Shown: positions 6,574 to 33,624 of the stretch, piece by piece
Numbering within the stretch: position 1 is the first letter of the stretch
Layout: every line of letters begins with the position of its first letter
Assembly (NCBI GenBank): GCA_000739535.1
Contig: DF820476.1
Coordinates: 1 to 33,624 of the forward strand
DNA from: Candidatus Vecturithrix granuli
GTDB lineage: Bacteria; Moduliflexota; Moduliflexia; Moduliflexales; Moduliflexaceae
Direction: 5' to 3'
Length of the DNA: 33,624 nt
Translations under genes and position numbers: made by a program
The notes under the pieces: model-generated
Told to the model about the DNA's origin: nothing
Databases searched by the model: none
What the model saw: the letters and a program-made list of their open reading frames with translations, nothing else

Positions 6574-9500
6574 TTATTTTTTCAGGATGTCATTCCCTTT
6601 TTTCAACGCATTAATCCAGTCCCACACTCCAGACCATTCTTCTGAAACGCCGTATTTTTCGATCTGTTGGCAGCGTTGATAGTAAATCCGGGCGACTTTA
6701 TCGTGCGGATTCACATGCAAAATTTCGTTGAAGAGTTCTTTGGCCTCGGCAATTTGCTTGATCTGGTCTTCAGGGCTGATATCTAACACCTCGGTAAATA
6801 ATTTTTGGGCAGCCGCAAATTTTGTGCGGTGATAGAGTTTAAAGCCCTGTTTAAAGAGCACCAGCGTTTTTAATTTTGATTCAATGATCTGCGGCGGATC
6901 CGCGTCAAACACTTCAAACACGGTCACCGGTTCTGATTTGCCTTTGGCCTGGACTTGATCGATAATGCGAATCGAATACTCCGAAGGATTTTTCAATTGG
7001 AAATACGTGGTTTCCCCGATCAAGAGTGAGGCGCCGTAGGTTTTGGTCATGTCTTCAATCCGGGCGGCTAAATTGACAGCGTCAGAAATCACCGTACCAT
7101 CCATGCGATGCTGATCGCCAACCGTGCCTAACATTAATGAACCGGTATTCAAGCCGATCCCAATCTGAATCGGCAGATACCCGGCCCGTTTTCGCCCCTG
7201 ATTATACTCTTTGAGTGTCTTGAGCATAGCTAACGAGCAGCGGACAGCGTCATCCGCATTGGTCGGAAATAAGGCCATAATCCCGTCGCCGATATATTTA
7301 TCAATAAATCCGCGATGCTCCTGAATGATCGGACTCATCCGGCTCAGATACGAATTAATGAAATTAAAATTTTCCTGGGGCGTCATTTGTTCGGAAATTG
7401 GAGTAAACCCGCGAATATCAGAGAACATCACGCTGATTTCTTTTTCGATTTGGTCACCAAGCTGCACCTCGACAATGCTCTTTTTACCGAGCAGACTCAA
7501 GAATTCTTTGGGGATAAAGCGGCTATAGCCGTTGGTCAGCTCAACTTGTTTCTTCGATAAGTCAATTTGCTGATTGAGCGATTCGCGTAATTGCTTATAG
7601 AGCGCGGCGTTTTCAATTGAGATCACCATTTGAGCCGAGAGCACGTTGAGCACTTTTAACCGAGATGGCGTAAAAACGCCAGTAGCAAGATCGTTCTCCA
7701 GATAAATGACTCCGCTGATTTTTCCGCGTTTGATGAGCGGAGTGCAGAGCACAGATTTCACCTGGTGCTGCGTGATATAAGGATCATGGGTAAAATGGCC
7801 TTCGCGGGCGGCATCCTGAAGCAGAACCGGCTCTTTTGTACGAATAACATAGTGAATAATTGAGGTCGGCAGGAAAGAAGGTTTCATGGATCCGACCGAT
7901 TCAAGCGGGATGCCATGCAGGACTTTCACTTCCTTGCTTTCAGCGTTTCCTTCAGCGTCAATCAACCATTCATCCTCTTTTTTGCGAATCAACCATCCTT
8001 TTTGTGCGCCAGCGCTTTCAATGACGATGCGCATCATCTGTTTGAGCAAATCAGTTAACACAAGATTTTCTGAAATCGCCTGAGATGCTTTCATGGTCGT
8101 ATTCAAATCCAGGAGGCTCAAGCCCTCATGGTCAATTTGAGTCGAAATACTGGTCGAATTCAGAGGTGTCGCCTTTCCCGCGGGTGTTACGGAAAATTTT
8201 GCCGAAAGATAGGGATAGGATTGCAGTAAATCCGTCATTTTCCGTTTTGCGCCCCACAGAGTGTAGGCGTGATAGGCATCTTTGATATACAGTTCGGCAA
8301 ATTCAGGTAACCCTTGTTTTTGATAAAATCTGGCGGCAATTTCCCAGGTGAGTGCCTTATGGTGGGGGAATTGCTGAACTTGCACCGCTTCAATCGCCTG
8401 GTGATACAATTGTATGGCCTCAAAGCGTTGTCCGGTCAAACGGGCCATTTCGGCCTGCACGAGCAGATAACAGTGTTGAAAATTTTCCGGGCAATGCTCC
8501 GCCCACTCTTGCATTTGTCGTTGGTTTTGGGTAAGAATTGTCCAATAATGTTGTTGTTGTTCCGCTGATGCTGCCGGATACAGCGCCGTCACGCTCAGGG
8601 AAACATAAAAATTATACGCCGCTCTGACGATAAAACTTTGGACGAGATCAAGCAAGGGTTCTATCTCTCTTGCCTGATGTAAGGCTTCTTGCGGATGTCC
8701 GTAGAGGTACAGGAGTTGGAGCTTCATAATCTGATACACGCTGAGAGCCATTCGATTCTGATGTTCCTGACATTGTTGCAGAAATTGGGCTTCACTCAGA
8801 GCGTCGGTATCAAAAGAGAGCGTTTCTGACGTGAATCCGGTCAGGTTCTCAAGAATCAACTGACAGCCCATCATGACATCTATCGCTGCCAAATTATGGG
8901 AGTGCTGGACAAATTCCAAAAATTGGGGAAAATCTTGCCGAATCTGTTCCAGGTTTGTGCCTTCGCAGAAGAGATTGAGCAGCCTGTGCATGAGCGCCAG
9001 ACCCGCGATATGAACTTCTCCGGCATCAATGGCGGTATGATATGCTTCATGTTCATACATATGGGCGAATTTCAGGTGTTTCACCCAACAGGTAAGCTCT
9101 CCAGCAAGGGTCAGGGCCGCCTCGCTTCTCTGCGCCAGATTGTTTATTTGTTCACTCAGTTGTATGGCAAATATGCCCAGGTCATATCCGGTTTGATACT
9201 TCCCATAGTATGTTCCAAGCAGAACACCATAATGAGCATAGCCAGACACAGATTCAGGGGTATGTCCGAAGGTCAAGGAAATCTTCATCATTCTGGCGAT
9301 AAGTATGGCATACATCAAGAAATTCGAAAAGCAAGCCGGGAAAATCAGGACATGTAAAATCTGCATGATCAGGTTCTGGTGTGAATCCGTGAGAAGAGGC
9401 GTTTGGAGCAATGCCGCAGGACTTTTCAAGCTGAAAAGATGTTGTACTTCAGACAGTTCTGCTTCAACGCGGTTCGCCATATTTTCACCAGGCCACTCCA

Positions 9501-12093
9501 TGCCTAAAATAGTCAGAGCATTTTCCCCTTCATGAAGGGCTTCGGCATATTTTCCCCGGCGCGTATAATGCAGGATCAATATTTTATAGGCAGCGATACG
9601 ATCATTGATGGTTTGCGCGTGTTCTAACAACGCACGCACAAGTTGTTCGGCCTGAGTGAAATTTCCGATAAGATTTTCGATGTCCGCCTGCTCTTTGACA
9701 AGTTCAAAAGTCAGCTCGTATTGGGTGCGCCAGCATTCTTTTTCCAGTAAAGCGACGCCTTCTGTGAAGTACTGCCGTGCAACCGTATAATTTGGGGCGG
9801 CTTTTGCCTGTCGTCCGGCTGATAAATTCAGTTGAACCAATTCACGCCGTTCTTCCTCGGTTTCAAGATACTCCGCGCCGAGATTCAGATGATCGACAAT
9901 TGCGGTCAGATGTTCTTCCCGGGTTTTCAGAGAACTGGGCTGATGCAGCAGATATTGACCGATTTTGAGATGGAATTTCCTTCCTGTTTCCGATGAGATC
10001 AGATCAAGAGCAGCTTCCTGAAAGCGGTGATGGACAAAATCGTAGAGCACATAAGGCGCAAAATCTTTTAGTTCGGAAGCCGGAAAAAACATGATATAAC
10101 GGTAGGATTCATCGGCCGGAAAAATAACGCCTTCTTGAATAGCCACGTCAATATCGCTGACGGTTTCATGTTCCGAACGATTCATGACAGCAGCTAAGGT
10201 TGAAAGATCAAACCGATTTCCGATACAGGCCGCGCATTGTAAGGTCTGTTGGATGTGCGCCGGGAGTTTTCGGATTTTCATGGTCATGAAGGCGGCCATA
10301 TTTTCAGGCATGGCCAGTCCCTGAATTTGCTCAAGATTCCATTGCCAGCATCCTGAGCGGGAATCGTAACTTAACAATCCTTCCGCATCAACCGTTTTCA
10401 AAAATTCCCTGATTGCAAAGGGATTTCCGGCCGTCTTTTCCAGCATCAGCCTGGCGAACGGCTCAAGTTTTTCCGGAGCATGGTGTAGGCTGTCAACAAG
10501 CAGTTGGGCGACATCTTGAAACGCTAACGGAGCAAGCGCAATGTGTGTGACCTTCGTCTGAGTCTTTTGCACCGTATTTACAAGATCATTCAAGCCGGAG
10601 ATCGCAGCTGCATCATCATCGCGGTATGCTCCGATGATGAGCAAGGCTTTTATTTGCTGACGGATCAGAAGATGTTGGACGAGTTGAAGGCTGGCCATAT
10701 CAGCCCATTGTAAATTATCCAGGAATATGACCAGTGGATGTTCCGGGGCGCTCAATGCCTGGATCAGATCTTGAAGGAGAAAATGAAGGCGATTTTGCGC
10801 TTCCTCCGGTGAGTTCTCTTCCTCTGTTCGCGTTGTTCCAAGAATCATCTCCACTTCGGGCAAAAATTCAGATAAGACCAGGGTATTATTTCCCACGGCT
10901 GCTGCAAGTTTTTCTCTCCACAAAGCCAGTCGGGATTCATTTTCAGTCAGCAATTGCCGCAGCAAACTTTGTAAGGCTTGAATCACTGCTGAATAAGCCA
11001 TGTTCTGTTTGAACTGTTCAAATTTTCCTGCGATGAAATATCCATGATGTTCGATAATCGTCTTTTGAAACTCATAGACCAGAGCGGTTTTGCCGATTCC
11101 GGAATAGCCTGATGCCAAAAAGAGTTCGCCGCGTCCCTGCCGGCTTCGATGAAACACTGTGAGCAAGGTATCAAGTTCTTTGGCTCGTCCATAAAGCTTT
11201 TGGGGAATCTCAAACGGTCTGGAGCGCTCATCCTGCCCGATGGCTACATATTGGATTGCGCCGGTGTGCTGAAGCTGTTCAAGGCACTTTTGTAAATCCG
11301 TGATCAGCCTGTCGGCGTGTTGATAGCGTTCTGTTGCTGTTTTGGCTAACAGTTTCATCACAATTTCTGAGACTGCTCTGGGAATCAGGTGATTGAGTTC
11401 ATTGGGGGAGCGAGGATGTTTGGCAAGATGGGCGTGAATCAGTTCCATCGTGTCATTGGTTTGAAAGGGCAAAAACCCCAGAAGTAATTCATAAAACGTC
11501 ACCCCGAGCGCATAGAAATCAGTGCGATAATCCACGATTCGATTCATCCGCCCTGTTTGTTCGGGGGAAATGTAGGCTAACGTGCCTTCAATGACGGCTG
11601 GATTCACGATCTCAGGTTGTTCGAAAGAAAAAGGCGCGGCAATGCCGAAATCAATCAGTCTGAGTCGATCAGTTTCCGGGTTCCATAAGAAATTTGAAGG
11701 GTTCAGATCTTTGTGCATGATATGCTGCTGGTGAATCGCCCCAACAATGGTACTCATGCGGATTGCAAGCTGCAAGAATTCTTCCAAATTGAATTTACGA
11801 ATCAGAAGGATCTCATTCAACGGCTGCCCACCAATATCTTCCAGCACCATCATCAAACTGTTCTGCCACAGTTCGATCCCATAGACACGGATCACACCAT
11901 CCACCTTCTGTAATGAACGTGTAATTTCATACTCGCGCTTAAAGCGGCTTATTTCCTGGGGAGATGGATATTCGCGATTCAGGGTTTTCAATATCACCGG
12001 ATGTTGATCGGTTGTACGTGTTCCGCGATATATCAGGCTATTGGCGCTTTCGTGAATTTTATAGATAGAGGTATATTCTGTACTGGAAATCAT
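6574..12093 (-). CDS. Giant Ser/Thr kinase - AAA ATPase - GAF - class III nucleotide cyclase protein
   Basis: This 1839-residue cytoplasmic signalling protein has several domains in order. The Ser/Thr kinase covers residues 8-275: Lys36 in VILKTL, catalytic HKDLNPSNF with Asp129, DFG at 148-150, SPE at 176-178. The STAND/AAA-like ATPase follows: Walker A GYSGIGKT at 329-336 and Walker B LVIFLDN near 454-460. A long helical-repeat region (about 640-1330) precedes a GAF domain (about 1336-1500). The class III cyclase covers about 1550-1735, with metal aspartates 1559 (FSDIRGF) and 1603 (IGDG), Lys1599 before IGD, and Asn1674/Arg1678 in NLAAR. A short repeat-like tail ends the protein. The key catalytic residues of all three enzymes are present. 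Lys1599 suggests adenylate rather than guanylate cyclase. The kinase-ATPase-GAF front is known from cyanobacterial-type multi-kinases that usually end in a histidine kinase. It is monocistronic. Confidence 0.93.
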   Translation of the reverse strand: MISSTEYTSIYKIHESANSLIYRGTRTTDQHPVILKTLNREYPSPQEISRFKREYEITRSLQKVDGVIRVYGIELWQNSLMMVLEDIGGQPLNEILLIRKFNLEEFLQLAIRMSTIVGAIHQQHIMHKDLNPSNFLWNPETDRLRLIDFGIAAPFSFEQPEIVNPAVIEGTLAYISPEQTGRMNRIVDYRTDFYALGVTFYELLLGFLPFQTNDTMELIHAHLAKHPRSPNELNHLIPRAVSEIVMKLLAKTATERYQHADRLITDLQKCLEQLQHTGAIQYVAIGQDERSRPFEIPQKLYGRAKELDTLLTVFHRSRQGRGELFLASGYSGIGKTALVYEFQKTIIEHHGYFIAGKFEQFKQNMAYSAVIQALQSLLRQLLTENESRLALWREKLAAAVGNNTLVLSEFLPEVEMILGTTRTEEENSPEEAQNRLHFLLQDLIQALSAPEHPLVIFLDNLQWADMASLQLVQHLLIRQQIKALLIIGAYRDDDAAAISGLNDLVNTVQKTQTKVTHIALAPLAFQDVAQLLVDSLHHAPEKLEPFARLMLEKTAGNPFAIREFLKTVDAEGLLSYDSRSGCWQWNLEQIQGLAMPENMAAFMTMKIRKLPAHIQQTLQCAACIGNRFDLSTLAAVMNRSEHETVSDIDVAIQEGVIFPADESYRYIMFFPASELKDFAPYVLYDFVHHRFQEAALDLISSETGRKFHLKIGQYLLHQPSSLKTREEHLTAIVDHLNLGAEYLETEEERRELVQLNLSAGRQAKAAPNYTVARQYFTEGVALLEKECWRTQYELTFELVKEQADIENLIGNFTQAEQLVRALLEHAQTINDRIAAYKILILHYTRRGKYAEALHEGENALTILGMEWPGENMANRVEAELSEVQHLFSLKSPAALLQTPLLTDSHQNLIMQILHVLIFPACFSNFLMYAILIARMMKISLTFGHTPESVSGYAHYGVLLGTYYGKYQTGYDLGIFAIQLSEQINNLAQRSEAALTLAGELTCWVKHLKFAHMYEHEAYHTAIDAGEVHIAGLALMHRLLNLFCEGTNLEQIRQDFPQFLEFVQHSHNLAAIDVMMGCQLILENLTGFTSETLSFDTDALSEAQFLQQCQEHQNRMALSVYQIMKLQLLYLYGHPQEALHQAREIEPLLDLVQSFIVRAAYNFYVSLSVTALYPAASAEQQQHYWTILTQNQRQMQEWAEHCPENFQHCYLLVQAEMARLTGQRFEAIQLYHQAIEAVQVQQFPHHKALTWEIAARFYQKQGLPEFAELYIKDAYHAYTLWGAKRKMTDLLQSYPYLSAKFSVTPAGKATPLNSTSISTQIDHEGLSLLDLNTTMKASQAISENLVLTDLLKQMMRIVIESAGAQKGWLIRKKEDEWLIDAEGNAESKEVKVLHGIPLESVGSMKPSFLPTSIIHYVIRTKEPVLLQDAAREGHFTHDPYITQHQVKSVLCTPLIKRGKISGVIYLENDLATGVFTPSRLKVLNVLSAQMVISIENAALYKQLRESLNQQIDLSKKQVELTNGYSRFIPKEFLSLLGKKSIVEVQLGDQIEKEISVMFSDIRGFTPISEQMTPQENFNFINSYLSRMSPIIQEHRGFIDKYIGDGIMALFPTNADDAVRCSLAMLKTLKEYNQGRKRAGYLPIQIGIGLNTGSLMLGTVGDQHRMDGTVISDAVNLAARIEDMTKTYGASLLIGETTYFQLKNPSEYSIRIIDQVQAKGKSEPVTVFEVFDADPPQIIESKLKTLVLFKQGFKLYHRTKFAAAQKLFTEVLDISPEDQIKQIAEAKELFNEILHVNPHDKVARIYYQRCQQIEKYGVSEEWSGVWDWINALKKGNDILKK

Positions 12094-32454: not shown

Positions 32455-32495
32455 AAAATCCGATGATGAAATCAAAAATAAGACAATTTCAACCA

Positions 32496-32561
32496 CAGAT
32501 TACACAAATTTCACAGATTCTTTTCTTGTTATGCTTTCATCTGTGGAATTCGTGTAATCTG
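32496..32561. repeat. Inverted repeat overlapping the 3' end of the nuclease gene
   Basis: The arms 32496-32518 and 32539-32561 are complementary at 21 of 23 positions, with a 20-base loop. The arm unit (CACAGATTACACAAATT) resembles the CAGATTT repeats after the MFS gene near 6490-6518. The stop of the minus-strand nuclease gene falls inside the loop, so the repeat encodes its last residues (SQITRIPQMKA). Confidence 0.7.
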
Positions 32562-33590
32562 GGATTCCGCCTCGCGTTCCAATCTTTTCAAGCCGAGTTT
32601 GGTAAGCATCTCTATGGCTGTATCTTCGTGTCCATCCCAACTATGCGGCACTTCAATCAGGGTAATTCCATGTTGTCGGCAGGCGTTTTTTTTCTCTTCA
32701 TCTCGCTGCTGAGTCTCTTTCAGTGCCGGAATTCCACCCCAGATTGTTTTGGGCAGGACATGTTGTTCCCCTTGATATTCAAAAGCCAAATAGAGTGACG
32801 GAATAAAAATATCGAGTTCCATCTTCTGATTTGTTTCAATAAACCGCATGTCAGGATGTTTAAAATCCCATTTTATGACGTACTTTGAGAAGATTTTTTT
32901 AATGATGCGATATAGCTGTTTCTGTTGTTTCTTCCCATAGGCAAATCGCTCAGGTTGCCATTTATACTCTGGGAAGGTTGCTATTACGGCGGCTGAAGGA
33001 GAAGCATGAAAATAGTCAAGAAACCCGCCTCCATTATGCGATTCAAACAATTTTTGGGTAATCTCATACCAATCTTCATATTTTCTAAAATTAAGTTGCT
33101 TTCCTAACCATTGCATGTATCTAAGCCGATTATCTGGGCTTTTCCAGAAATTTTTGGGAGCAGACGCGAATAACCACTCTTTCCAATCATTTTCTGGAAA
33201 ACATTTCATTACAGCGGCAGAAGGAGAGCTTCGGTAAAAATGGGTAAGAAATCCACTTCCATTATGTAACTCAAAGTCTTTTTGTGTAATATTGTACCAA
33301 TCATCAAGGGTTTTATAGCCAAGTTGTTTTCCTAACCATTGCATGTATTGAATATGTCTATCTGGGTTTTTCCAGCAAATTTGAGGAGTTTTATCAAATA
33401 ACCATTCTTTCCACTCATATTCAGGGAAACATGATATAACAGCGATTGCAGGAGAATCCTGATAGTAATTCAGAAGCGTTCTCCCATAATACTCGTTAAA
33501 ATCTTTCAGAGTGATCCTGTACCGATCTTCAAAAGACTTACATCCAAGTTGGGTAGTGGTTAAATTGTAAGTGATGGGGACCCGGAACAC
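32529..33590 (-). CDS. Three Trp-rich repeats fused to a Vsr/DUF559-like nuclease domain
   Basis: This 353-residue protein is not assigned to a named family. Three repeats of about 65-75 residues cover 8-65, 76-141 and 153-216. Each reads roughly QWLGKQLG..DWYxIT..F..HNGxGFL..FYxSSPSAAV..FPExxWKEWLF; the first copy is shortened and altered at its start. The C-terminal part (about 225-320) has a PD-(D/E)XK-style core: ELDIFIP with Asp260, then AFEYQGEQH with Glu271 and Gln273, then RDEEKKNACRQHGITLIEVPHSWDG. Vsr and DUF559 nucleases share this layout. The frame starts at GTG 33588-33590, with an in-frame stop two codons upstream. Loss of an N-terminal piece, or a start outside the window after a frameshift, is possible. 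DNA cleavage guided by the repeats is only a hypothesis. Confidence 0.72.
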   Translation of the reverse strand: MFRVPITYNLTTTQLGCKSFEDRYRITLKDFNEYYGRTLLNYYQDSPAIAVISCFPEYEWKEWLFDKTPQICWKNPDRHIQYMQWLGKQLGYKTLDDWYNITQKDFELHNGSGFLTHFYRSSPSAAVMKCFPENDWKEWLFASAPKNFWKSPDNRLRYMQWLGKQLNFRKYEDWYEITQKLFESHNGGGFLDYFHASPSAAVIATFPEYKWQPERFAYGKKQQKQLYRIIKKIFSKYVIKWDFKHPDMRFIETNQKMELDIFIPSLYLAFEYQGEQHVLPKTIWGGIPALKETQQRDEEKKNACRQHGITLIEVPHSWDGHEDTAIEMLTKLGLKRLEREAESQITRIPQMKA

Positions 33591-33624
33591 TGCTCAACAG
33601 ACAGGAGGGCGATGAGGTCATCGC

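Follow-up and report, generated by a model that had tools for sequence, protein, structure and literature searches.

The gene at the end of the window, as we call the whole 33,624-nucleotide stretch of Candidatus Vecturithrix granuli DNA that we analysed, probably had as its ancestor a free-standing homing endonuclease, a member of the EDxHD (Vsr-like, I-Bth0305I-like) superfamily with a row of putative DNA-binding modules. The gene was interrupted by a MITE, and the copy in the window is most likely inactive, a recent fossil. Computation shows the modules, the fold of the nuclease, its conserved catalytic residues and the MITE, whose positions are given in Table 1.

Table 1. Features of the interrupted nuclease gene, in positions of the window.
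Feature	Position	Strand	Remarks
ORF as read	32529..33590	-	353 aa, GTG start; native gene sequence from codon 14 (33551)
Right-hand 73 bp of 185-bp MITE	33552..33624		imperfect 25-bp terminal inverted repeats GGTAGTGGTTAAATAGTAAGTGATG / CATCACTTACAATTTAACCACTACC; runs into assembly gap at 33625
Presumed target-site duplication CAACTTGG	33544..33551		same bases in module 2: AAACAACTTGG, codons K-Q-L-G
Module 1	33396..33551	-	residues 14-65; first ~20 positions absent; 53 bits, profile positions 21-72
Module 2	33168..33386	-	residues 69-141, complete; 99.5 bits
Module 3	32943..33158	-	residues 145-216, complete; 97 bits
Vsr-like / EDxHD nuclease domain	32589..32939	-	residues 218-334 (117 residues); HMM, conservation, fold
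Q223, at helix-1 Glu position	32922..32924	-	Glu in 117/124 relatives
D260	32811..32813	-	invariant
E271	32778..32780	-	invariant
H277	32760..32762	-	invariant
D297	32700..32702	-	invariant
Dispersed palindrome	32491..32566		28-nt arms 32491-32518 and 32539-32566, 86% complementary; gives last codons and stop

The ORF on the minus strand encodes three tandem modules ahead of a nuclease domain, an arrangement already recognised in a preliminary description and borne out here. In the DNA of the window the modules appear as a 219-nt repeat, 73% identical, with a spacing of 228 nt. A module HMM made from other proteins only, with the window protein left out to avoid circularity, found all three modules with E 1.6e-74, the best of 999 shuffles having reached E 0.044. 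Across 35 modules the consensus reads P-x-x-F/Y-W-x4-N-R-x-x-Y-M-x-W-L-G-x-x-L-G ... D-W-Y-x-I/V ... D-F ... G-x-G ... Y-x-S/G-S ... P-x-x-x-W-x-E/P-W-x-F. A structure model of two modules was all-helical (pLDDT 94) and had no convincing fold match in the PDB: Foldseek gave nothing better than E 3.5, an absence that does not prove a new fold, and the best VIA-align Z among 34 chains was 2.5. Profile searches of the PDB with 25 module pairs yielded chance matches only, the window modules matched no Pfam family, and searches of Pfam, NCBIfam and PDB sequences with the whole protein returned nothing above cut-off.

A link to DUF4046 (PF13255) was nevertheless found. With a module profile free of DUF4046 sequences, an Alicyclobacillus DUF4046 protein (P0002) scored 45 bits (E 4e-13) and one from Priestia 25 bits, against 10 bits or less in 1000 shuffles, and the modules are therefore distant kin of DUF4046; the window protein itself had no match to this family at the Pfam curated cut-off of 22.8 bits. 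Unlike the window protein, the DUF4046 proteins, encoded on Alicyclobacillus and Priestia plasmids (Bacillales), carry no nuclease. Three of them lie beside spore-germination genes (L017 3614-4654, L103 3734-4486, L104 2770-3522), which offers a lead that DUF4046 proteins regulate germinant receptor genes. A survey for DUF4046 in one Bacillales family gave no signal anywhere and was uninformative.

The modules of most relatives have a net charge of +10 to +47 (L167 only +3), and nuclease-free modules are strongly basic in most planctomycetes (+25 to +47). This charge would fit nucleic acid binding; the window modules, unlike those of the relatives, are neutral (net 0, pI 7.1). The helical modules are probably DNA-binding, with DNA as the presumed polymer, and their array is rare and uncatalogued. 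A TAL-like code in the tandem modules was considered and rejected as a likely reading, since mean identity between modules of one protein is only 35 to 46%; the array is thus unlikely to be a simple code of the TAL effector type.

The C-terminal domain was detected at E 6.5e-26 by a nuclease HMM built without the window protein (best shuffle, E 0.021). In an AlphaFold2 model made from 83 sequences (pLDDT 89, pTM 0.70), residues 220-338 align with Vsr (1cw0) at Z 10.2 over 107 residues (rmsd 2.8), and the model aligns with the I-Bth0305I catalytic domain (3r3p) at Z 9.8 over 97 residues (rmsd 3.1) and with 3hrl at Z 9.3. Other PD-(D/E)XK folds scored Z 5 to 7, so the margin of the Vsr-type matches is modest but consistent. 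The model contains an alpha-beta core of the Vsr type, as expected of an EDxHD / Vsr-like fold and of the PD-(D/E)XK core foreseen in the preliminary description. Of the Vsr/DUF559 likeness proposed there, the Vsr half held; DUF559 (PF04480) gave no Pfam match up to E 1, and DUF2726 (PF10881) scored the window protein at 15.8 bits, under its Pfam curated cut-off of 24.7 bits.

Foldseek of the model against the PDB was weak (best E 0.33), and a PDB profile search with 47 nuclease domains gave chance matches only. Against predicted viral proteins, Foldseek returned clear matches, several of them named homing endonucleases. The sequence of the nuclease domain matched phrog_559 (E 3.6e-18), phrog_9084, 'homing endonuclease' (E 3.7e-11), and phrog_7140, 'intron encoded nuclease' (E 1.2e-7). 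Kinship with phage homing endonucleases is accordingly firmer from sequence (phrog_559, phrog_9084) than from Foldseek of the PDB, and judged by such matches the domain is of a known kind and belongs with these phage enzymes. The absence of any described function for the architecture, noted earlier, thus applies to the combination and not to its cutting domain: modules joined to a Vsr-like nuclease are in no curated library that we searched, and the module array is likewise absent from them, linked only distantly to DUF4046.

D260, E271, G274, H277 and D297 are invariant among the aligned relatives (131/131 or 130/130). The Asp, His and Asp of the EDxHD motif are present (D260 and H277 in 131/131, D297 in 130/130), and Q276 and K300 are nearly invariant among about 131 nuclease domains. 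Of the catalytic layout first put forward, D260...E271-x-Q273, the Asp and Glu are present; position 273 varies among relatives (Gln in 95, Asp in 32), and 'E-x-Q' is therefore not the motif. In place of the motif's first Glu the protein has Gln223. The fold alignment pairs model residue 220 with Vsr residue 22, by which Gln223 would fall at Vsr Glu25, a residue that we take to have a role in Vsr. Mapped from the Vsr fold, the catalytic set would be Q223/D260/H277/D297, of the EDxHD type. Because Gln223 replaces the first Glu, we describe the protein as family-like and descended from EDxHD homing endonucleases, not as a canonical member. Among 124 nuclease domains, the helix-1 Gln is found only in the window protein and in that of a viral contig, L015, though the pair is just 39% identical; it may reflect either shared ancestry or a functional variant.

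Modules and nuclease occur together in four proteins, with 3 to 6 modules: the window protein (three, the first broken), L015 (four, the protein being cut by the contig end), the 577-aa L212 of a deltaproteobacterial MAG (six, with the canonical Glu) and L016 of a Flammeovirga plasmid (about four, diverged). The closest full-length relative (39%) is L015, which precedes a DnaB-like helicase gene by 7 bp. A site next to such a gene on a viral contig is a usual kind of place for homing endonuclease genes. A relative of the nuclease domain sits between pieces of the terminase large subunit gene of Staphylococcus phage PSU4. Eight further proteins, from planctomycetes as far as they are named, carry modules and no nuclease, four modules each in L165, L166, L191, L215, L237 and L276 and three in L167 and L270. 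From this distribution it follows that the modules form a part of their own, which is joined to a nuclease in some proteins only. Loss of D260 or E271 from homologues that retain the modules had been named as evidence against a nuclease; there are module proteins from which the whole nuclease is missing, and every homologue that has the nuclease keeps both residues.

Occurrence is patchy: one of the four genomes searched in the organism's own phylum, one of 195 in the phylum of L212, and one viral contig; in the planctomycete group 2/392 genomes have modules, one being the query genome. Peptide patterns taken from a two-row alignment gave no hits when genomes were scanned, and a DNA-pattern scan for W-Y-x-I/V-T ... 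P-E/K-x-x-W-x-x-W gave 90 stretches, with 7 loci confirmed by HMM. Two of the four-module nuclease-free planctomycete proteins (L191 6041-7045, L166 480-1481) overlap the start of a pabB/trpE-like gene, in at least two genomes, and are perhaps a vertically kept regulator. A second EDxHD-like C-terminal domain, with a canonical S-E-T-E-L-Y helix and an unrelated N-terminal part, is found at L014 3070-4212 (contig C15) and L020 2614-3600; a Sphingobium plasmid relative of this C15-type protein adjoins an error-prone DNA polymerase gene.

It seems unlikely that the nuclease serves its host in restriction, defence or repair, as DUF559 or Vsr proteins do, instead of being a selfish homing gene. A VapBC-like pair adjoins the gene, and from this toxin-antitoxin neighbour the preliminary description had drawn a possible defence role; yet PADLOC gives no match for the protein, and neighbours differ at each of the four loci that combine modules and nuclease, so that none is conserved. 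Vsr itself is a repair enzyme, the L212 and window copies lie outside introns, and the C15 protein of the same genome joins an EDxHD-like C-terminal domain to a different N-terminal part. Against these points, no methylase or partner gene is present, and the closest relatives of the nuclease domain are homing endonucleases of phages.

The front end of the ORF testifies to the interruption. Since the MITE end supplies the GTG start and the first 13 codons, the native protein differs from the ORF as read; an in-frame TGA stands two codons before the GTG, and native sequence begins at Gln14. The worn start of module 1 had been noticed correctly, and it is worn because the MITE inserted in this module. 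The genome has at least 38 further sites with 65 bases or more of the MITE, the closest being 96-99% identical. Copies with two ends are mostly 185 bp long, starting with GGTAGTGGTTAAATAGTAAGTGATG and finishing with CATCACTTACAATTTAACCACTACC, and exact 8-bp target duplications accompany 5/7 full-length copies, one more copy differing in an eighth base. Directly after the MITE end in the window, CAACTTGG forms the codons Q-L-G of a module. Copies of the family in the query genome include L248-L253, L003 and L011, and others (L247, L251, L254) also end in assembly gaps.

In contig C8 a run of 339 N bases, an assembly gap, starts where the window ends. A gap beginning inside the MITE would explain the broken assembly and, if sized right, would fit about 112 bases of MITE, a second 8-base copy and some 219 bases of gene. 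The lost 5' end of the gene probably lies within this gap; frames beyond it on contig C8 showed no module. Also beyond the gap, an HNH endonuclease gene survives as a remnant with a broken frame (L008 2502-2768, minus strand, contig C8 34501-34767; HNH_5 E 3e-6), after which comes another piece of an ORF; this makes a second decayed nuclease within 1 kb. A 990-aa protein by the gap (L008 2692-5664, minus strand) has a 72% identical paralogue on contig C15 (382722-385688); the three relatives compared contained nothing that matched it strongly. Elsewhere in the window, at 6574-12093 on the minus strand, an 1839-aa protein combines protein kinase, AAA ATPase, GAF and guanylate cyclase domains in one chain.

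At the tail of the ORF, residues 342-353 and the stop codon lie inside a dispersed palindrome, as had been supposed; the genome has similar sequence at 13 further sites, and the nuclease core ends ahead of the palindrome.

A shortened ORF might still work, with two and a half modules and the nuclease expressed from the start supplied by the MITE, and the frame is indeed open over 340 codons without a stop. We regard this as quite improbable, for the sequence ahead of the GTG (GCCCTCCTGTCTGTTGAGCA) has no visible ribosome-binding site, promoter-like sites are at no more than chance level, and the MITE is 96-99% identical to other copies. Given this identity, the open frame may reflect a recent insertion whose decay is perhaps not yet visible. 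Internal starts could still yield a shortened protein.

Very unlikely is a protein directed at RNA in the manner of mitochondrial RAP proteins, which also have a Vsr-like fold behind a helical part. The model does match RAP domains at Z about 9 to 10 (FASTKD4, Z 8.9; Toxoplasma gondii mitoribosomal chains, Z about 10), and FASTKD4 is Vsr-like (PMC11879112). Yet every relative here retains the nuclease residues, which FASTKD4 does not keep, having Asn570 at the place of Vsr His69 (PMC11879112); the sequence matches are DNA homing endonucleases, and the best relative lies beside a phage DNA replication gene. RAP proteins also differ in their RNA role and their repeats.

Descent from a homing endonuclease is in keeping with what is known of related enzymes. 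EDxHD enzymes consist of a nuclease tethered to extended DNA-binding modules, and the target of I-Bth0305I is near 60 bp (PMC3943268). Like I-Bth0305I, the window protein has a C-terminal Vsr-like catalytic domain in an extended multi-module protein, with the D, H and D of the motif; the two share 11% identity over the fold alignment, and the window protein differs in its helical DUF4046-like modules, in Gln223 for the helix-1 Glu and in not being found in an intron. The phrog_559 proteins are VSR-type and intron-encoded, in Bastillevirinae terminase genes (PMC11878797), and members of phrog_559 and phrog_9084 share the nuclease domain family; P0003 and P0004 among them bear treble-clef-like zinc modules instead. 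Escherichia coli Vsr has the same fold, but it is a single-domain mismatch repair enzyme of 10% identity without repeat modules.

Homing as the biology of the gene, DNA as what the modules bind, cutting and loss of function are what we infer. The ancestor would have been a free-standing homing endonuclease of the EDxHD superfamily, whose N-terminal row of all-helical modules of about 75 residues, distant kin of DUF4046, would bind a long DNA target; the C-terminal Vsr-like domain would cut it, and repair would copy the nuclease gene into the cut site. Later the 185-bp MITE would have inserted in module 1, parting the N-terminal start from the remainder. Counted against homing are the neutral window modules and the Gln at the first motif position. 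An intron was looked for at the window locus and not found, Rfam detected none in 19 related loci, and no empty site was found, the flanking gene being without a match in the three relatives compared.

It is doubtful, though conceivable, that the modules form a new class of modular DNA-reading repeat, of a fold without a solved relative. Each unit of about 75 residues would then touch a fixed length of DNA, the number of modules (3 to 6) would decide how long the target is, and the planctomycete and DUF4046 proteins that lack a nuclease would be regulators with the same reader.

The window copy warns that automatic gene calls can mistake the end of a mobile element for the start of a protein. 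If descent from an EDxHD homing endonuclease is true, this class of phage homing nucleases has gained a DNA-binding array of a third kind, in addition to NUMOD and zinc modules. The array would be common to stand-alone proteins, DUF4046 and an unnamed planctomycete family, giving these a testable DNA-binding role, and structural biologists would gain a small helical fold to which no solved structure clearly corresponds.
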